This document shows positions 2,544 to 10,749 of a DNA stretch of 64,000 nucleotides, in pieces. The DNA comes from Rhizobium sophorae. GTDB taxonomy: Bacteria > Pseudomonadota > Alphaproteobacteria > Rhizobiales > Rhizobiaceae. The notes under the pieces were generated by a model that saw nothing but the letters and a program-made list of their open reading frames with translations, was not told the origin of the DNA and ran no database searches. Within the stretch, counting starts at the first letter, position 1, and every line of letters starts with the position of its first letter. A program made the position numbers and the translations under genes. Location of the stretch: the NCBI RefSeq assembly GCF_013087515.1, contig NZ_JABFCN010000003.1, positions 248,001-312,000 of the forward strand. The letters run 5' to 3'.

Positions 2544-2898
2544 GGATGATCGGAGCGATGGTCGATGCTCCTGCTGGAGCAACTCCGACACATCGTTTTG
2601 AGTACTCCGCAGCCTTTGGCGAATCCTCGCAAAATTACGGTGCCAAAACAACATTTCTTTGACGCTGCTTTGACGGCAGGATGCTACGGCCGGTTTGCGA
2701 AGTTACGCAAAGGGATTTCAACCGGTTATGCTTCAGTTCGATCATCGTCATAGCATAGATTTACATTTCGCAATCCCGGTTTCCCTTCCCGGTTGCTTGC
2801 CAGGAGCCGAAGTTGTGGCAGACTGGCCCCTGGATGCTAGGTTTTCCGGCCGCCAAACGAGCGTATCGGAGGCAGCGGGGGCGGGGCCGGTGGATCGC

Positions 2899-4683
2899 AT
2901 GAACAAGGAGCACTATCCGTTTCGGATGTTCCTGCTCGGGCCTTTTGCCCTTGTGGACGCCGGGGGGCGGTCGGTTGCTCCGAAATCCAAGAAGGCACAG
3001 GCTCTTCTGGCAATGCTTGCATTGTCCACCCGGGGCTCGCGCTCGAGAATCTGGCTTAGGGACAAATTATGGAGCGATCGCTCCGACGACCAGGCGGCAG
3101 CCAGTCTGCGCCAGGCGCTGTTGGACATTCATAAGAGTCTGGGGCCGGCACGTGATCTCCTGATTGCGGATAAGAATACCGTTTGGTTGGATACGGACCG
3201 ACTCGTGCTCGATACCGACCTGGTGATTCGGACTGAGCGGTCTCCGGATCAAGTCACCGACGAATTGCTCGAAGGTATCGACATCCGCGATCCCGAATTC
3301 GAGGACTGGTTGGCGCTGGAACGGCAAAACTGGTATCGCCGCCTCGATGAAGGACAAGTCCACGACGTATTCGAGCCGCGACAGCAGCCGAGCCGCGATG
3401 TCGCCAAACATTCCGCCCTGCTGCCGTTAACAGGCGCCCCGGATACGTCGAGCACAGGCAAATCCGTGGACATCGCCAGCAGCGGCCCATATGGGCGGCG
3501 GGGTGGCGGTGGCTGGCAATGGATGATGGCTCTTCTGTCCCCCATCGTGGTGGGTGCCGGAGAGGGCGGACAAATTGCTGCGACACGGTTCCAGAACCTC
3601 ATTGCAAAAGCCATTATCGATGGGCTGGGATTTGGCGTCACTGACCTCTCCTTCACCTTGCCGGATATTGAAGGGAACGAACAGCAGATCAGCCTTCCCA
3701 TATGCCTGCAGCTTCGCCTGACGTTTGATGGTGACATGGTGCTGATCGAACTGGTGATGAAGCACCTGATCAACAACCGTATTCATTGGCTGGGCAGTCA
3801 GGCAATCAACCGCACGCAGTTCGAGCGGGGCGAGTTCGGCATCGCCGCTGCGTTGATCAGCCAGGCCGTCGATCAGCTGGCCTATTTCCAGGAGATCCAG
3901 GCAACCGACAGCCGATTGTCGCAAGACGGTCTCCTGATCGACGCCGTCAATGCGATATTTCGGCTGTCGCGCGATGACCTCGATAACGCGGAGCGGCGCC
4001 TGGAAGAACAGATCCAGTATCAGCCGCGATCATCGACTTTTGCCTGGCTGTCGTTCATTCGGACTTTCCAGGTCGGCCAACGTTTCAACGCGCTTGACGC
4101 GCATCTGATCGAGGAAGCCCAGGCCTATGCACGCAAGGCGCTGGAACTCGATCCGCAGAATTCCGTGTCGCTCGCGCTCGTCGGCCACGTCCATTCGTTC
4201 CTGTTTGGCGAATACGACTATGCGGCCAACCTGTTCGAAAAATCGATCCGCCTGAATCCGGCCCTGCCTCTCGGTTGGGACCTCTACGCGATGCTGCACT
4301 GCTATGCAGGCCAGCCCGATAAGGCGGTGGCGATGGCGCGTTGGGTGCAAGAGCTCGGCGTCTATAGCCCGCATAAATATTACTTCGATACGACCAAATG
4401 CATTGCGGCAGCGCTTGCAGGCGATCATGCCGCAGCCATAGCTGCAGGCGAAGAAGCCCTGCGGACACGGCCGAACTTCAACAGCTTGCTGCGCTATCTT
4501 GCCTCCAGTCATGCCCATTCCAACGATCTCGGCGGCGCGCGGCATTATCTGGAGCGTCTTGAGGCAGTCGAGGGCGACTTTTCCATCACCGCCTTCCGCG
4601 GCAGCGGCTATCCGCTGCTCGACACAGGCGGCGGCCAGATCTTGATCGACGGCCTGCTCAAGGCCGGCGCCAAGCTGCGCTGA
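2899..4683 (+). CDS. SARP-type transcriptional regulator with C-terminal TPR repeats
   Basis: A DNA-binding activator-like protein. The N-terminal ~100 residues match the OmpR-like winged helix of SARP/DnrI regulators (FRMFLLGPFALVD, then KSKKAQALLAMLAL, LRDKLWSDR, ASLRQALLDI). A middle linker contains a Gly-rich stretch and a short hydrophobic run (WQWMMALLSPIVVGAG) that is weak as a membrane segment. The C-terminal ~250 residues read as TPR helices (YARKALELDPQN, FEKSIRLNPALPLGWD). The frame extends to a TTG at 2695, but ATG 2899 (or GTG 2890) puts the start just before the domain, so the start is uncertain. It lies upstream of, and in the same direction as, the PAP2/subtilase/HExxH/ThiF genes with only 41 bases to the next one, so it is the obvious candidate regulator of that cluster. 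No ligand can be predicted. Confidence 0.78.
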   Translation: MNKEHYPFRMFLLGPFALVDAGGRSVAPKSKKAQALLAMLALSTRGSRSRIWLRDKLWSDRSDDQAAASLRQALLDIHKSLGPARDLLIADKNTVWLDTDRLVLDTDLVIRTERSPDQVTDELLEGIDIRDPEFEDWLALERQNWYRRLDEGQVHDVFEPRQQPSRDVAKHSALLPLTGAPDTSSTGKSVDIASSGPYGRRGGGGWQWMMALLSPIVVGAGEGGQIAATRFQNLIAKAIIDGLGFGVTDLSFTLPDIEGNEQQISLPICLQLRLTFDGDMVLIELVMKHLINNRIHWLGSQAINRTQFERGEFGIAAALISQAVDQLAYFQEIQATDSRLSQDGLLIDAVNAIFRLSRDDLDNAERRLEEQIQYQPRSSTFAWLSFIRTFQVGQRFNALDAHLIEEAQAYARKALELDPQNSVSLALVGHVHSFLFGEYDYAANLFEKSIRLNPALPLGWDLYAMLHCYAGQPDKAVAMARWVQELGVYSPHKYYFDTTKCIAAALAGDHAAAIAAGEEALRTRPNFNSLLRYLASSHAHSNDLGGARHYLERLEAVEGDFSITAFRGSGYPLLDTGGGQILIDGLLKAGAKLR

Positions 4684-4724
4684 ACCCCGGACAATTCTTC
4701 ACATCATCGCGCAAGGAGGCTGCA

Positions 4725-5759
4725 ATGGAAGCGGACACTGCCAACGAATCGCAATCAAAATTAGTTCTTTTTCTAAACAGTTATAAATTCAGGATTGAGC
4801 CGGATACGGTCCTTCCATGCGAGCCGAGGGACGACGCCGGTGCTGATCCTCTCGCCGGCGCGTCGCCGGCTGCACCTGATGCAGCCTCCGAACCTGCGCC
4901 TTTCCCCGGTACGGGAGAAGATGCATCGCCTCTGGCCGGGCCTATGAAGGCGACGATGGCCGTAGCCTCGGTCCTCAACAAGAGCGTGGCGAACAAGTCG
5001 GTGCTCAACAAGGCGTCGCTGAACAAAAACAAAAATAAGAACAAAAATAAAAATAAAAATAAGAACAAGTCGACGATGGACGGCGCCAGCCTCGGCGTGT
5101 CGCAGCTTATCCCCTCCTTCGAGCTGCGCAGGCTGCACCAGCAGCCGTCACGCAACGCCTATACCGCGGCGCGGCGCTTCACCTGGGAAATGCTGGATAT
5201 ACTTCCGCCGCCCGGCCCGGATTATACCCGCCTTGAAACGACGGTGCTGCTCTCTATGCAACGCCGCGACCGCGAACGCGTGCGGCGCCTGCCCGACATC
5301 CAAATCGAGTCGACGATCTCCGTGGGGGAATTCACCCGCGCATTGCATATCGAGGATCTCGGCGGTTTCGAGCAGACGGAAGGCCTTTTCCAGGCGATCC
5401 TGACGGCCTGCGAATATGTCGGACTGATCTACAAGAGCCAGTTCAACCGGCTGCGGCCAAACCAGTTTGAGCCCATGCTGCGGCCGTTGCTGGCCGTGCC
5501 GGTCCATGAGTCCTATCCCAGCAACCATTCGTTCCAGTGCTTTTCGATCGCCTTCGCGTTCTCAACGATCCTGCCGGAACATCCAGCCACCGACGAGCTT
5601 GCCCGCATCGCCCAGAACGTCGCCGAAAATCGCGAATGGGCCGGCCTGCACTATCCGAGCGACACGCAGGCAGGGCGAGATCTCGCCCGACGCTTCGCTC
5701 CCTACCTCCACGACGCGTTCGGTCCTTTGTTCCAGGCCGTACACGACGAATGGGTCTGA
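4725..5759 (+). CDS. PAP2/vanadium-haloperoxidase-fold protein with Asn-Lys repeat linker
   Basis: 344 residues starting at an ATG with an excellent AAGGAGG ribosome site. The C-terminal half carries the three PAP2-superfamily phosphate/vanadate-binding motifs: K-x6-RP (KSQFNRLRP, residues ~237-245), PSNH (~265-268, normally PSGH) and R-x5-H-x3-D (REWAGLHYPSD, ~303-313). Proteins with these are acid phosphatases or vanadium haloperoxidases, and the sequence does not say which. No signal peptide or membrane helices are evident, which fits the soluble haloperoxidase-like branch better than lipid phosphatases. The N-terminal third is Ala/Pro-rich and runs into three degenerate five-residue repeats (LNKSV, ANKSV, LNKAS) and eight tandem Asn-Lys pairs, which probably form a linker. 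The subtilase gene starts 33 bases downstream, so the two are likely cotranscribed. Confidence 0.75.
   Translation: MEADTANESQSKLVLFLNSYKFRIEPDTVLPCEPRDDAGADPLAGASPAAPDAASEPAPFPGTGEDASPLAGPMKATMAVASVLNKSVANKSVLNKASLNKNKNKNKNKNKNKNKSTMDGASLGVSQLIPSFELRRLHQQPSRNAYTAARRFTWEMLDILPPPGPDYTRLETTVLLSMQRRDRERVRRLPDIQIESTISVGEFTRALHIEDLGGFEQTEGLFQAILTACEYVGLIYKSQFNRLRPNQFEPMLRPLLAVPVHESYPSNHSFQCFSIAFAFSTILPEHPATDELARIAQNVAENREWAGLHYPSDTQAGRDLARRFAPYLHDAFGPLFQAVHDEWV
4974..5069 (+). repeat. Coding tandem repeats: 15-bp units followed by a hexanucleotide NK tract
   Basis: Inside the PAP2-family gene, three imperfect 15-base units (encoding LNKSV, ANKSV, LNKAS; 4974-5018) are followed after one Leu codon by eight hexanucleotide units of the form AAY-AAR (5022-5069) encoding (Asn-Lys)8. 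The tract is A-rich in an otherwise GC-rich gene. The unit lengths are multiples of three, so expansion or contraction would change the linker length without breaking the frame. Confidence 0.9.
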
Positions 5760-5792
5760 ATTCTCCAGCTGCTGCTCATTAGGGTTACAACC

Positions 5793-7487
5793 ATGACGGA
5801 TCAAAGACAAATGCCTGAGCCTGCGCCGATCAACTACTACTATCTCTGGCACCTGACTGCTCTTGGCGTCGTCGACGCGGAATACGGATCGGCTCCGCCG
5901 GCGCCTCCAGCGCCCGATGCGAGCGCCGCACGCGCGCTCCCCGATCCCCTCATCACCGGCACGGTCTGGGATGCTATCGTATCCGCCGGCCCGCTGCGAC
6001 CCGCCCGGGTCGCGCTGATCGATGTCGGCGTATCTCCGGATCATCCCAACCTGGCAACCCGGCTTGACCGGGAGGCGTCAATCGATTTGACGACCCATCG
6101 CTACGGCGCGCGCGTGCTCGAAATTCTCGATACGACCACGTCCTTTGACCGCGAGGAAAGACATGCCTTCTTTGCCGGGCTCGACATCGCTCCGCTCGGC
6201 AATATGGGCCTTTCGAACGACGACCGAGACTATCTCGGTGATCTGGTTGCCGAATACGCCGCGTCGGAGGGTGTTCTCCGGCGGCTCTACAATCCGGAAT
6301 CGCTGTTTGCGTCGCATGGTACCTGCTGCGCAGGGCTGATCGTCGGCGAACCCGCCGTTGTTGCGGAAGAAGGCACGTCAAGCCTTCCGCCGGAAGGGGC
6401 CTTCTACGGGAATGGCGACGAGCTGCGTACGAGCGGCAATCGCAATGTCATCCCCTATTTCGGCGTTGATCCTTTCTCAAGGCTCATCTCGATCAGAACC
6501 TCCTTCGAAGACGATGTCAGGCAGTTCATTGCGGCCTTCCTTTATGCCTATCTTCAGAAGGCAGACGTGATCGTCTTGCCGCGTGGTCTGCCTGACCCGA
6601 AACGCAGCATCGTTGATCCGAAAAACGAGCTGAAGGCCGACCTGGAATTATGGAAAAACCAGGATGCCGCCAATCTGTTCACGCGCATTGCCCTTGCTGA
6701 TCAAGGTGAGCCTGAACTGGAGCCGAAGGCTGCGCAGAAAGGCTCCAATCCGGATCGCCCGTGGCATGTCCTCAAACAACTCATCCTCGCCATCAGCCGG
6801 CACATCCCGATTGTCTGCGCCGCAGGAAACAGTGGCGAGAGCCAGCTGATCTATCCAGCAAGTCTAGCCGCCGACAACAACGGCATTATTGCGGTTGGAG
6901 CCGTTACCGTCGAAGGTTTCCGTTCGGGCTACAGCAATTACGGCGAAGGATTGACGGTTGTCTCTCCCTCTGACGACGCGGAGGTCTTCAACAGGCATCA
7001 GTTGCGCCTCGACCGGCTTTCTCCATTTGCCGCGCAGCACGACTACAGCGTTTTTCGAACGCGGGAATACTGCTATTCGCACTTCTCGCTACTGACGACG
7101 GACCTATCGGGGACTTTCGGCTATGATCATGGCTCCGATCCGTGGTCGGCCATCGTGCCGTTCGGAACCAATCCCGGCATCGGGGGCGGATACTACACCA
7201 CCTTCGGGGGCACATCAGGCGCGGCGGCGCAGGTGGGCGGGCTATGTGCCTTGATACAGCGGGCCTACAAAAGCCGCCACAACCTGGGTGACCGCCTCTC
7301 GGGGCCTCAAGTAAAGTCAATTCTGAAGACCGCATCCCGCCTGGACGCCATTGTCGCGCCCGGAACGAGGAAATTGACGGCGGATTGCATGAACGCCGAA
7401 AGCGAGGACGCCGTCGAGATGGCCTATTTCTTTGGATCGGGCCTGCCGAATGCGCGGGCGGCAGTACAGGCGGCTCTGGCCATCTGA
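5793..7487 (+). CDS. Subtilisin-like serine protease (peptidase family S8)
   Basis: 564 residues with a complete S8 catalytic set: Asp near residue 76 (ALIDVGVSPDHP), His near 175 (SHGTCCAGLI), oxyanion Asn near 346 (CAAGNSG) and Ser near 475 (GGTSGAAAQVGG, where the usual GTSxAAP has Ala-Gln in place of Pro). There is no signal peptide; the N-terminus is a Pro/Ala-rich stretch of ~45 residues, so the enzyme is probably cytosolic or exported by another route. It follows the PAP2 gene by 33 bases with an AGGG ribosome site, and a strong intrinsic terminator follows it. Position next to peptide-modification-like genes suggests cleavage of a cluster-encoded peptide or protein, but that is inference. 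S8 proteases are also maturation proteases in several peptide natural-product systems. Confidence 0.9.
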   Translation: MTDQRQMPEPAPINYYYLWHLTALGVVDAEYGSAPPAPPAPDASAARALPDPLITGTVWDAIVSAGPLRPARVALIDVGVSPDHPNLATRLDREASIDLTTHRYGARVLEILDTTTSFDREERHAFFAGLDIAPLGNMGLSNDDRDYLGDLVAEYAASEGVLRRLYNPESLFASHGTCCAGLIVGEPAVVAEEGTSSLPPEGAFYGNGDELRTSGNRNVIPYFGVDPFSRLISIRTSFEDDVRQFIAAFLYAYLQKADVIVLPRGLPDPKRSIVDPKNELKADLELWKNQDAANLFTRIALADQGEPELEPKAAQKGSNPDRPWHVLKQLILAISRHIPIVCAAGNSGESQLIYPASLAADNNGIIAVGAVTVEGFRSGYSNYGEGLTVVSPSDDAEVFNRHQLRLDRLSPFAAQHDYSVFRTREYCYSHFSLLTTDLSGTFGYDHGSDPWSAIVPFGTNPGIGGGYYTTFGGTSGAAAQVGGLCALIQRAYKSRHNLGDRLSGPQVKSILKTASRLDAIVAPGTRKLTADCMNAESEDAVEMAYFFGSGLPNARAAVQAALAI

Positions 7488-7515
7488 ATCCCGGGGATGC
7501 TTTTCCCCAGATTCC

Positions 7516-7542
7516 AAGCCTCCTCCATCGAGGGGGCTTTTT
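7516..7542 (+). terminator. Intrinsic terminator after the S8 protease gene
   Basis: A 10-bp stem (AAGCCTCCTC pairing with GAGGGGGCTT, one G-T pair) with a CATC loop, followed by TTTC and further T-rich sequence. It lies 28 bases after the protease stop and splits the cluster into an upstream (PAP2, S8) and a downstream (HExxH, ThiF, small ORFs) unit. The rest of 7543-7729 has no gene and should hold the promoter of the downstream unit. Confidence 0.8.
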
Positions 7543-7729
7543 CTTTGTTTACGCCCTTTTTACGGATTTTTAACGCGGTACTGGCGGGCGAATGACGCCC
7601 TTGGGCAATAGTGCCTCTCAACGAACGGCGCATACCGTTCCGATGCCGACGAAGCCGACCCGAACCGGGGGCATCTTCGCCCGACATGCAACCTAGATCC
7701 ATCAGAAGACAAACCCACGGAGGCTGTCG

Positions 7730-9163
7730 ATGTCCGCGTCTCGCATTCAACAATTGGCAGATGAGGCGTGCCACCTGCTTAAGGGCAATCCCCTGATGGC
7801 TAGCACCGCCTCCCTGCAGCGCGTCGCAACTCGCAACCTTTTAAAGCGACGCTTCCAATATGGGTCTACGCTCGCAGCGGCTTCGAAGCTCACCGATTGT
7901 TCGGCCGGGGTAGAGGCGCTGTCACGATATTTCCCCGACCTTGCAAATGGCGGATACACTCGCCTGCTGGAACTTCCCCCAGCGGTTGCCGGACCGGTTA
8001 CCGCCGACCCTTACCGTTCATCCGTGCTTGCAGCCTGGATGAATGGGCTCGCGCGGAGCCTGGAATGGCAGGCGGGAGGCCCCGATGTGCAGATCGTCAG
8101 CGGCTGTTTGCAGTCGGATCTCATCGCATCGGATCTTGAGCTCGAACGTCAGCCGGCGCGCCGACTCTCTTGCGGCATCGGCCTCGTCTGCATCGAAAGC
8201 CTGGCACGGAGCCGTGTCATGCAAGCCCTCCTCCGCCAATGCATGCCGAACTACCGCGGCTCCGACTATCCCATCGCTGACGACGCTGAATTGGATCGCA
8301 TCGCCGATCATCTGGAGAGCGCCTTCGCGCTAATCGCGGGATTGGACATGTACGGCTATCAGCGCCTGATCGCCGGCCTGCACACGCTTTACATTGGCGT
8401 GCGACGCGAATCGCCGTGTTCGTTCTCGAGTTCGAACGAATTGCCGGGCAGCGCGATGATCGTGCTTTCCAGAGAAAGATTGCGCGATGGCGATCATGCC
8501 GCGACCGCGGCCCAACTGCTTCACCAAGCGGGGCACGTCCTGCTCGGGCTTTATACGACCTCGGCGGCGGCATCCCTGCCTGGCGAGTTCCAATATGTTT
8601 CCCCATACAAGGAGGATCTACAAACGTTCGAGAGCATCCTGCACGTGGTGTACACCGTTCCCTGGGAGTGCGCCTTCGGCATGGCATGCCTATCCAACGA
8701 GACGAATCCTGAGCGTCGCGCCTGGAAGACGGCATTCATAATTACCTATGCCGCGCGGCAGGTTCCGCTCATCGATATCGCTCGGAAAGGAATCGAACGT
8801 CTCGGCGGCGATGTCCTCCTCGACCTCTCAGACATCGCCGCCATTCCTTCCTGGAGTAGCCGGATCTTGTTCCTCGTGGGCCAGTTGCTTGCCGAAGAGC
8901 CCATTGCGCACCGTCAAGCGCACTTTGCCGAGCGCCAGCGAGTTCTCGATCGCCAAGCCTGGGATATCGGACAGATGCTGCTGCGCGGCAAAGAGCCGGT
9001 CGATCCTCGGATGGGCCGGCGAGAGATCGATGACAGCGGCGACAATGTCAGCCTCTGGTACGACGGCAAATTCCACGTCATCCCGAAGGCCTCCGACCAT
9101 CCGATGGGCAAGGACTACGGTCGCTACCGCGGATATGCGCCCAGCGAGATGGAGGCGATGTGA
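7730..9163 (+). CDS. Putative HExxH-type peptide-modification protein (aKG-HExxH-like)
   Basis: 477 residues with no signal peptide. The layout around residues 245-330 (an apolar PGSAMIVLSRERL strand, then AAQLLHQAGHVLLGLY, then PYKEDLQTFESILHVVY and VPWECAF) resembles the HEXXH-motif proteins found in RiPP clusters, some of which are iron/2-oxoglutarate peptide beta-hydroxylases. The metal motif is HQAGH at ~265-269, so the two His are kept but Glu is replaced by Gln. That argues against a zinc protease and leaves metal binding possible. The start is ATG 7730 with ACGGAGG 7 bases upstream. The stop overlaps the start of the ThiF-like gene (TGATG), so translation is coupled. The family call is from pattern memory and is moderate. 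Confidence 0.55.
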   Translation: MSASRIQQLADEACHLLKGNPLMASTASLQRVATRNLLKRRFQYGSTLAAASKLTDCSAGVEALSRYFPDLANGGYTRLLELPPAVAGPVTADPYRSSVLAAWMNGLARSLEWQAGGPDVQIVSGCLQSDLIASDLELERQPARRLSCGIGLVCIESLARSRVMQALLRQCMPNYRGSDYPIADDAELDRIADHLESAFALIAGLDMYGYQRLIAGLHTLYIGVRRESPCSFSSSNELPGSAMIVLSRERLRDGDHAATAAQLLHQAGHVLLGLYTTSAAASLPGEFQYVSPYKEDLQTFESILHVVYTVPWECAFGMACLSNETNPERRAWKTAFIITYAARQVPLIDIARKGIERLGGDVLLDLSDIAAIPSWSSRILFLVGQLLAEEPIAHRQAHFAERQRVLDRQAWDIGQMLLRGKEPVDPRMGRREIDDSGDNVSLWYDGKFHVIPKASDHPMGKDYGRYRGYAPSEMEAM

Positions 9164-10107
9164 TGGTCAATGATCGGTCCAAACGATTGTCAGCGACCGC
9201 CACCGCGTCCGTCGACTTCCCGAGCCTCGTCACCCACAGCCTCGGGCGGGGCGGCCGGGGGGCTCTGTTCACCGGCAATAGTGCCGATTCTGTCGAAGAA
9301 CAGAGCCCCCATGCTACTAGGTCTGCATTCGTCGTCTCGTTGAAGGCTTCCGATATGCCGGCCGAGGACGAATATGACTCCACCGCAATCGATCACCACG
9401 ACGCCATCCTGACGCCTCTTTGCCATCAGCAACGCGACCTCGCACGGTTTGGCGATATCGACTTCGTCATCGTCGGATGCGGCGACTTGGGTTCACAGAT
9501 CGCCATCCAGCTTGCGGCCCTCGGCGCGCGCCGTTTCCTTCTTGTAGATGCGGATCGTATCGACGAGAAGGATTTGAACCGTCTCCCTTGGGCGGGCGAG
9601 GCTGATCTCGGGTGGCTGAAGACGGACAGGCTGGCGAGCCGTCTGGCCGCGGGTTTCTCGGCCAATGTCTTCGTACTGCCCGAATTTGCGGAAGGCGCCT
9701 CGGCGCTGCGGTTAATCGCAGACTATGCCAATAACCCGTTCTTCATTTTCGCCGGCGACGATTCTGGTCCAGCACAAGATCTCCTGTCGACCTGCCGAGC
9801 ATCGAAAGCCGGCCTGCCGCCGCATCTGCATGTGGGCCGCTCTGCAAACTATTGCATGGCAGGTCCTTTGGTCTTGGTGCATGAGGACGCATGTTCCGTC
9901 TGCCATTGCGCCGCCCAAGTCGCAACCGACGGCAGCTTTCGCAGCCCGCCGGCCACCGTCGACAACCCATTGGTCGCCGGCCTTGCCGTGTCGCTGATCG
10001 CCCAAAACTGCCTTTCGATGCACTCGGTCGCCCGGGGACGCCAATGGATATTGGACCTTAAAGGCGATCAGGCCGAGCTGCGCTCTCTTAAAACACCCCG
10101 AATGTAA
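9163..10107 (+). CDS. ThiF/E1-like adenylyltransferase
   Basis: A member of the ThiF/MoeB/E1 superfamily, which adenylates a C-terminal carboxylate of a small protein or peptide. The Rossmann nucleotide loop VGCGDLGS is near residues 104-111, followed by LLVDADRIDEKDLNRLPWA (acidic and Asn-Arg positions of the fold), the Lys segment LGWLKTDRLASRL, and the Asp in FIFAGDDSG. A CSVCHC cluster at ~243-248 is compatible with the Cys-pair zinc site of E1 enzymes. About 100 residues of Ser/Asp-rich sequence precede the fold. ATG 9163 overlaps the upstream stop and has GGAGG 7 bases upstream. GTG 9160 is also in frame. Coupling with the HExxH-like gene and the tiny ORFs just downstream suggests a role in modifying a cluster-encoded peptide. 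The substrate is unknown. Confidence 0.8.
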   Translation: MVNDRSKRLSATATASVDFPSLVTHSLGRGGRGALFTGNSADSVEEQSPHATRSAFVVSLKASDMPAEDEYDSTAIDHHDAILTPLCHQQRDLARFGDIDFVIVGCGDLGSQIAIQLAALGARRFLLVDADRIDEKDLNRLPWAGEADLGWLKTDRLASRLAAGFSANVFVLPEFAEGASALRLIADYANNPFFIFAGDDSGPAQDLLSTCRASKAGLPPHLHVGRSANYCMAGPLVLVHEDACSVCHCAAQVATDGSFRSPPATVDNPLVAGLAVSLIAQNCLSMHSVARGRQWILDLKGDQAELRSLKTPRM

Positions 10108-10110
10108 GGT

Positions 10111-10338
10111 ATGTCCATGATCGCGCTATTTTCCTCGGAATATTGTTGCTCCGTTGGCGCAACTGCCGGAAAGAACGATGAGCTGACGATAACCGAAGCT
10201 CTTCGTGATCCACTGATCGCCATCGTGATGCGCGCCGATGGCGTGACCTCCGAAGAATTCAAGCGGCTCCTTGAGGCGGCAGCCCGCGAGCTAAAAGCCA
10301 ATCTAGCGAACTCCTCCTTCCCACCAGCGGGAGGATAG
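10111..10338 (+). CDS. Small unknown protein after the ThiF-like gene
   Basis: 75 residues (73 if translation starts at ATG 10117, which has AAGG at better spacing). I do not recognise a named family. The N-terminus has a Cys-Cys pair (SSEYCCSVG), a central segment reads LRDPLIAIVMRADGVT, and an amphipathic helix EEFKRLLEAAARELKANLA leads to a short Ser/Pro/Gly-rich tail. It begins 3 bases after the ThiF stop, so it belongs to the same transcript. Its size, position and helix-then-tail layout would fit either a modification substrate (leader plus core) or a small partner that recruits the substrate. Nothing in the sequence decides between these. Confidence 0.6.
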   Translation: MSMIALFSSEYCCSVGATAGKNDELTITEALRDPLIAIVMRADGVTSEEFKRLLEAAARELKANLANSSFPPAGG

Positions 10339-10342
10339 GCAC

Positions 10343-10447
10343 GTGATTGTCGAAACGACACGGGAGATGGTTGACGAGCATGTGTGGCCAATCCCGGTCC
10401 AAACCATGACTCGGCACTGGCCGTCCCGCGGAGTTCAGGGGCAATGA
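10343..10447 (+). CDS. Tiny 34-residue ORF coupled to the DUF982 gene
   Basis: A GTG at 10343 lies 4 bases after the previous stop and 7 bases after a strong GGAGGA ribosome site (10330-10335). It opens a 34-codon frame whose TGA (10445-10447) overlaps the ATG of the next gene as ATGA. The peptide is Trp-, Pro- and Arg-rich in its second half (VWPIPVQT, RHWPSRG). It could be a genuine small peptide (possible modification substrate), a leader peptide for coupled translation, or the relic of a DUF982 N-terminus, since DUF982 proteins often begin with a W-x2-PV segment. Expression is unproven. Confidence 0.4.
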   Translation: MIVETTREMVDEHVWPIPVQTMTRHWPSRGVQGQ

Positions 10448-10749
10448 GATTCGATATGGTGAGAAAGTTCCCAACGATAATTCTCGTCTTTGCCGAAGGG
10501 AAAGATCGCAAGGTGATCCGTACCGCTCACGAGGCTGCCCAACTGTTGCTGAAGGAATGGCCCACCGACGATGGTGAGGAATTCCTCACAGCAGTGAGAA
10601 TCTGTTTGGAGGTCCTTACCGGAGAGAGCGAACCCGAGCAATTGCAAGAGGCAATCGTCCGCGCGGCATATGAAGCGGGTATTGCAGTGATCACGACTGA
10701 TAACCGCCTTGGGATTCTCAGGATCTATCCAGTCAGCGAGGCCAGATAG
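10444..10749 (+). CDS. DUF982 family protein
   Basis: 101 residues matching the pattern of DUF982, a small cytosolic family expanded in rhizobia and of unknown function: an N-terminal strand (FPTIILVFAEG), the TAHEAAQLLLKEWP helix with its conserved Trp-Pro, then a helix with RICLEVLTGE and a terminal AAYEAGIAV segment. The frame opens at 10384, but ATG 10444 gives a compact domain and overlaps the stop of the tiny upstream ORF. An AGGGG lies 3 bases upstream, closer than ideal, so translation may rely on coupling. It is the last gene of the ThiF transcript before an 80-base gap and convergent genes. Whether it works with the modification genes is not known. Confidence 0.75.
   Translation: MRFDMVRKFPTIILVFAEGKDRKVIRTAHEAAQLLLKEWPTDDGEEFLTAVRICLEVLTGESEPEQLQEAIVRAAYEAGIAVITTDNRLGILRIYPVSEAR

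Follow-up and report, generated by a model that had tools for sequence, protein, structure and literature searches.

Seven open reading frames (ORFs) follow one another at positions 2695-10749 on the plus strand of a 64-kb stretch of Rhizobium sophorae DNA (contig NZ_JABFCN010000003.1, positions 248,001 to 312,000; this whole stretch is hereafter called the window), and the question raised by this row is whether its genes make up one pathway of peptide or protein modification. An earlier note on the same DNA had placed all seven on one strand, which we confirm, and had proposed a logic in which a ThiF/E1-like protein activates a carboxylate, an HExxH protein and possibly a PAP2-fold protein modify, and an S8 protease cleaves. 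Such an activate-modify-cleave pathway seems unlikely in the window, because PAP2 and S8 belong to a separable unit, precursors are missing, the ThiF protein is apparently chimeric and the glutamate of the HExxH motif is lost. It is instead quite probable, in our judgment, that the row is composed of a SARP-PAP2-S8 unit (the trio) and a likely HExxH-ThiF remnant of a larger predicted cluster for ribosomally synthesized and post-translationally modified peptides (RiPPs), a far fuller version of which is found in Rhizobium sp. BK602 and Peteryoungia ipomoeae. The RiPP character proposed for the HExxH protein and ThiF held, and titles and abstract openings in the open literature revealed no paper on this gene combination, in line with the statement that no named system is known to have it. 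What appeared to be a new pathway in well-studied rhizobia, among them R. johnstonii 3841 with its copy on pRL12, would thus be a readable fossil that points to the fuller clusters.

Fuller clusters and likely deletion scars

A first search detected the HExxH protein in 5 of 61 relatives (own genome counted), and the four other genomes of this search share five genes in identical order, more than chance would give, with extra genes in between at one locus (L009). Relatives were found in 2 of 297 genomes of the order (own genome included; E<=1e-15) and at 27 loci in named genomes; 68 plasmid records also match, 67 of them over at least 80% of the query. All 27 fetched loci have HExxH behind SARP-PAP2-S8, though it is partial in L036 and L037, and they come in three forms: 2 are far fuller, 16 are of the window type with both small ORFs, and 9 are of a Neorhizobium type that comprises SARP-PAP2-S8-HExxH-ThiF, with half a methyltransferase in six of the nine and further decay in L037. 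HExxH and ThiF are both present in 25/25 reduced loci fetched. Below, the 26 reduced loci are 17 Rhizobium-type loci including the window plus the 9 of Neorhizobium type.

The two far fuller loci (L011 in BK602 and L024 in P. ipomoeae) share the order SARP-PAP2-S8-radical SAM/SPASM maturase-two NHLP-like peptides-HExxH-SpeD-methyltransferase-two small peptides-ThiF-tandem methyltransferase-GNAT, which we predict to be a RiPP cluster. The fuller-cluster ThiF has MccB as best matches in the Protein Data Bank (PDB; E 1.9e-12), SpeD (P0083) matches AdoMet_dc (PF02675, 61.6 bits), the small peptides carry a GDLVAN C-terminus (11 aligned peptides plus two further copies), and the NHLP-like peptides have the common C-terminus DGNCGCALxGPGGVLTR. 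The structure model of the fuller ThiF has a mean predicted local distance difference test score (pLDDT) of 56.3, with values below 50 over most of residues 1-88, where the peptide clamp or RiPP recognition element (RRE; about 90 residues) of MccB would lie. Modification of the NHLP-like peptides in such a cluster would fall to the radical SAM and HExxH enzymes, and the MccB-like ThiF would adenylate the GDLVAN peptides at their C-terminal Asn, before an aminopropyl group is added to them from decarboxylated S-adenosylmethionine (AdoMet) supplied by SpeD; the GNAT protein may confer self-immunity. Reading of the ORFs in L011 and L024 brought up no MccC-type exporter, for which no dedicated search was made. 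Elsewhere in the family, the maturase has a relative in 1 of 394 genomes (E<=1e-60) at 35% identity, which sits in another Rhizobiaceae genus at G266:C63:16505-17557 (L057).

Out of nine fuller-cluster proteins searched in the 64-kb window, HExxH and ThiF alone match as genes, and the precursors, SpeD, methyltransferases and GNAT are absent. The NHLP-like and GDLVAN peptides have no match in the 64 kb (GDLVAN at E<=0.01), where a precursor of another kind may still exist; the ThiF gene has no adjacent Asn-ending precursor (its small neighbor P0006 ends in PPAGG), and the search for SpeD yielded a chance-like match of 31 residues at 32 kb (E 0.005). The maturase is reduced to a front stretch of 29 codons in the gap between the S8 and HExxH genes, where window positions 7556-7642 match the opening codons of the maturase frame in L011 (29 residues, 55% identity, E 0.001); blastn for maturase and precursors in this gap gave short matches only. 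At the DNA level, a plus-strand block at 7556-7622 matches the DNA where the maturase gene begins in L011 (7641-7706) and is shorter in L024 and Neorhizobium, with the reservation that in the control 5-15 out of 1,000 stretches picked at random from that locus did equally well, some of them overlapping the true place. This block is likely the retained front (promoter or leader) of a lost cassette. Judging from the coordinates and relative to BK602, the maturase and precursors would account for about 2.2 kb missing from the window, and the part from SpeD to ThiF for about 1.6 kb.

The gene for the MccB/ThiF-like E1 protein (9160-10107, plus strand; 315 aa; PF00899) is likely a deletion chimera that opens with a stub of SpeD (16 codons, 9160-9207). 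The window protein starts VMVNDRSKRLSATATA and the fuller-cluster SpeD VMGELRSHRLSAVVSA (shuffle p 0.009), their DNA is identical at 32 of 46 bases (maximum of 22 at 3,000 random places), and SpeD stands behind HExxH at the same overlap in both fuller loci. When 24 reduced loci were scored for this stub (L036 and L037 left out), 18 beat all 3,000 random places; speaking against the stubs, L033 and L034 were unremarkable, L021, L026, L029 and L035 each had one or two random places that did as well or better, and L036 reached a shuffle p of 0.05. The scar in Neorhizobium is a different one, as the first ~15 residues of ThiF are those with which the lost methyltransferase began (shuffle p at the test floor of 0.0005 in 4/4 tested; 0.3-0.5 in L037), and most of these loci have a degraded SpeD-like stub upstream of ThiF. 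As to the clamp/RRE region, the window protein opens with the SpeD-like stub, and the region is absent from three aligned Neorhizobium ThiF proteins. The different scars, together with a tree of the trio that joins BK602 to the reduced Rhizobium loci, apart from Neorhizobium (ultrafast bootstrap 99), make at least two independent reductions likely, one in Rhizobium and one in Neorhizobium. We reject the idea that the reduced form is ancestral on account of the SpeD and methyltransferase stubs.

The window ThiF has MccB as its best PDB match (E 1.7e-5; 3.2e-12 with the ThiF profile). Its ratio of nonsynonymous to synonymous substitution rates (dN/dS) is 0.44-0.55 in the reduced Rhizobium groups (0.34 in another grouping), 0.18 in Neorhizobium and 0.22 in the fuller pair, so that by this measure ThiF is relaxed in reduced Rhizobium and not in Neorhizobium. 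In its NxNR motif the window has retained the Arg, which is replaced in 12 of the 16 Rhizobium-type loci tabulated (window included). We also considered an anti-phage type II E1-E2 system using PADLOC and rejected it, because the E1-E2 models match ThiF alone and reveal no E2, JAB or ubiquitin-like partner; among the other six window proteins, the lone match at E<=0.01 is that of S8 to a subtilase model (0.0017).

Motif loss and selection in the HExxH protein

The alpha-ketoglutarate (alpha-KG)-HExxH-fold protein (7730-9163, plus strand; 477 aa) clears the cut-off of NCBIfam TIGR04267 for alpha-KG-HExxH peptide beta-hydroxylases (54.0 versus 40 bits). Its AlphaFold model (pLDDT 89.4) has the HExxH protein ChlB as best PDB match and agrees with the ChlB HExxH domain in fold, and the fold is intact as far as this model goes; a PDB sequence search with the HExxH profile gave no match. 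The resemblance to RiPP hydroxylases seen earlier stands for the family and fails for the iron-binding motif, which reads HQAGH in the window (residues 265-269, 8522-8536, plus strand), with Gln in place of Glu, and HEAGH in both fuller loci. Because of this motif, we call the window protein a homologue and not a proven hydroxylase. A motif His is lost in 18 of the 26 reduced loci, including 9/17 of Rhizobium type (window included) and 9/9 of Neorhizobium type, all three His are kept in 8/26, and motif plus third His are complete at all four residues in 4/26, compared to an intact motif in 2/2 fuller loci.

Despite this loss of motif residues, the substitution ratios indicate that the protein is under purifying selection. 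The dN/dS is 0.24 (bootstrap 0.17-0.35) among 8 loci with a common second-His loss and 0.20 (0.15-0.25) among 8 Neorhizobium loci with a common first-His loss, next to 0.23 (0.16-0.30) for the fuller pair and 0.20-0.36 across the reduced groups. The most economical reading for the reduced loci is a non-catalytic or repurposed HExxH protein; the window would then make none of the fuller-cluster product, its HExxH protein would be kept for binding or some other new purpose, and its ThiF would be drifting. The HExxH gene is also a peak of divergence, with 84-90% identity between the window and L015/L016 in 7695-8944 and 94-99% (L015) or 87-99% (L016) in the 250-bp stretches upstream of it, which suggests allele replacement. 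As a separate observation, the motif alleles HQAGH and HEAGN both occur in otherwise close loci of the R. leguminosarum group.

These properties invite another explanation, namely that HExxH and ThiF are kept as a pair that provides immunity, a decoy or leader binding against relatives making the full peptide, with HExxH alleles that fit different peptides. The conservation of HExxH in the face of motif-residue loss and its divergence peak would suit this idea, but ThiF is drifting in Rhizobium, few fuller clusters turned up where searched (2/27 loci, plus the single distant maturase relative mentioned above), and we know of no immunity role of the HExxH fold, so that we regard it as unlikely. 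We find it harder still to believe that the two genes are plain pseudogenes in slow decay for which selection ended too recently to be noticed. The truncated HExxH of L036 and L037 and a match split in two pieces in 4 plasmid records (H23, H61, H71 and H72) among the 60 listed out of 68 are what decay would look like, yet the frames are open in 24/26 reduced loci and dN/dS is 0.20-0.24 inside groups that already share the loss of a motif His.

The SARP-PAP2-S8 unit and the downstream small proteins

The trio consists of a SARP/TPR-like regulator (2695-4683; 662 aa from a TTG, with an ATG at 2899 in frame inside the ORF), a PAP2/acid-phosphatase-like protein (4725-5759; 344 aa with a low-complexity N-terminal arm; PF01569) and an S8 peptidase (5793-7487; 564 aa; PF00082), all on the plus strand, and it is an independent unit, which other rhizobia have on its own. 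S8 occurs in 10/297 genomes of the Rhizobiaceae family and, in a sample of the class, in 1/289 genomes, which is the own genome (both at E<=1e-60). Seven of the 10 genomes have PAP2-S8 without a HExxH or ThiF match in the 20-kb stretch, six of them with SARP, and the ORFs downstream of five of these seven loci are ordinary genes among which no RiPP gene was recognized on reading. The earlier suggestion to examine whether the genes stay together thus has a split answer, since the trio lives apart from HExxH and ThiF in these seven genomes and HExxH with ThiF stands behind the trio wherever HExxH was fetched.

The gene families named for the row largely stand, with PAP2 (32.0 versus 27.2 bits), Peptidase_S8 (64.1 versus 21.8) and ThiF (57.1 versus 28.1) each above the Pfam cut-off. 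For the regulator, two TPR models pass and the SARP part is weakly supported, as the single SARP-named match is NCBIfam AfsR at E 0.0089, far under its cut-off. The coupled starts described earlier do not extend through the whole row, in which HExxH and ThiF are the only pair to overlap (4 bp) and the following small protein P6 lies 3 bp behind ThiF. Between S8 and HExxH, a gap of 242 bp and a terminator-like hairpin (7516-7539, plus strand) break the row of six, and the trio and the HExxH-ThiF remnant are likely separate transcription units. The hairpin scan overall found no excess (9 hairpins versus a shuffle mean of 7.3), and a comparable hairpin with a T-run is seen after S8 in the 9 aligned sequences.

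The best PDB sequence match of the PAP2 protein is the acid phosphatase 7f17 (E 1.5e-12), and its alignment shows K..RP / PSNH / R..H..D residues that, like the D/H/S motifs which are invariant across the aligned S8 proteins, are presumably catalytic. Its arm contains an (Asn-Lys)8 run (5022-5069, plus strand) that is written in mixed codons and retained as an Asn-Lys-rich run across genera down to about 52% identity, in 19/19 PAP2 proteins aligned (of 36), including 7 from loci without HExxH and ThiF (imperfect in L055). We know of no role for this run, and we reject it as a substrate of the HExxH protein given its presence in 7/7 loci that lack the latter. In R. johnstonii 3841, the RefSeq PAP2 (NC_008378 681124-681936) has 270 aa; judging by the conserved N-terminal arm, its translation would begin about 74 codons earlier, in agreement with the window gene. 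The dN/dS is 0.08-0.18 for SARP (medians by group) and 0.07-0.12 for S8, and for the function of the unit the sequences suggest at most a phosphatase/haloperoxidase-fold enzyme that is regulated and has a protease of its own. That the row is a working compact modification system in which HExxH, ThiF and S8 act on the PAP2 arm or on a substrate whose gene lies elsewhere is very improbable, because the purifying selection on HExxH, its company with ThiF in every reduced locus, its nearly full-length matches on plasmids and the invariant S8 motifs have to be set against a row without precursor, the lost Glu and His, the raised dN/dS and SpeD-like N-terminus of ThiF, and an Asn-Lys arm that does without HExxH.

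The two tiny ORFs at the end of the row are generic. The first is the 75-aa protein P6 (10111-10338, plus strand), which has no family-model match, 39 Rhizobium small-protein relatives and 3 family copies in the own genome, and the second is a DUF982 protein (10384-10749, plus strand; 48.6 bits versus a cut-off of 22.2) with 17 matches in the own genome (window copies counted in both cases). P6 as a precursor peptide is rejected in view of these relatives and copies and of its unrelatedness to the GDLVAN peptides of the fuller clusters (profile-comparison probability 0.2%). At L020, L021, L022 and L023, the ThiF frame continues into the downstream small-protein family as a fused ORF of 381-428 aa.

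Weight of the evidence and comparison with known systems

Several points weigh against reading the row as a trio plus a remnant. The fuller cluster was observed in two genomes, to which four further contigs are just tentatively linked, and its NHLP assignment stays under the curated cut-off (Os1348/NHLP NF038399, 18.8 versus 40 bits, E 0.0013), so that we use the label NHLP-like only. Its methyltransferases gave no aminopropyltransferase match, no MccD-like transferase was recognized, and the PDB matches of its GNAT are generic and not MccE. No NHLP-like precursor was found in the own genome in a single search run without a positive control. The placement of Peteryoungia in the trio tree is poorly supported (43), and any tally of losses is made less secure by recombination inside the locus. 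The window protein still has three putative ligand His, and HEAGH is intact in four reduced loci, where the oxygenase may thus have stayed active. Finally, the word remnant may undersell a living function given full HExxH frames in all reduced loci but L036 and L037 and a dN/dS of about that of the fuller pair.

A bolder version of the trio-plus-remnant reading, which we put forward tentatively and with more doubt than confidence, sees in BK602 and P. ipomoeae a hybrid RiPP factory that joins microcin-C to radical-SAM/alpha-KG-HExxH chemistry on GDLVAN peptides of ~60 aa and two NHLP-like peptides, and that Rhizobium and Neorhizobium stripped twice while keeping HExxH as a selected, non-catalytic pseudo-oxygenase. 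The repeated loss of iron ligands under purifying selection would then be a natural case of what an oxygenase fold does after its oxygenase activity ends, and the "peptide beta-hydroxylase" that carries the TIGR04267 name in many Rhizobium genomes may have lost this activity.

The closest structural counterpart of the HExxH protein, ChlB (PDB 8s5f), is reportedly a radical SAM enzyme fused to an alpha-KG-HExxH domain. Unlike in ChlB, the rhizobial radical SAM and HExxH are separate proteins, and in the window the motif is without Glu and a radical SAM partner is missing. The pfl/pos RiPP clusters of Pseudomonas, whose HEXXH enzymes PflC and PosC act on NHLP precursors (PMC12636437), resemble the fuller rhizobial loci in having a HExxH-fold protein beside NHLP-like precursors and a GNAT. 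They differ in that the rhizobial loci have radical SAM/SPASM, SpeD, an MccB-like ThiF and GDLVAN peptides in place of MNIO-nitroreductase, and the window differs further by its HQAGH motif and missing precursor.

Microcin C (MccA-MccB-MccD/E) is similar to the fuller loci in that their ThiF is nearest to MccB in the PDB and adjoined by small Asn-ending peptides, and in that an AdoMet-handling enzyme and a GNAT are present; the window retains ThiF alone. In microcin C, MccB adds a nucleotide to a C-terminal Asn and the aminopropyl group is made via MccD and MccE (PMC12250964), and every MccA precursor encoded near an mccB gene ends in Asn, one class being 17-56 aa long (PMC6495379). By comparison, the fuller-locus precursors have about 60 aa and not 7, and SpeD would decarboxylate AdoMet beforehand, in place of the order of MccD first and MccE afterwards. 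If true, the fuller clusters would offer a second route to aminopropylated peptide-nucleotides, through SpeD and not MccD/MccE, within a RiPP cluster that has two kinds of precursor.

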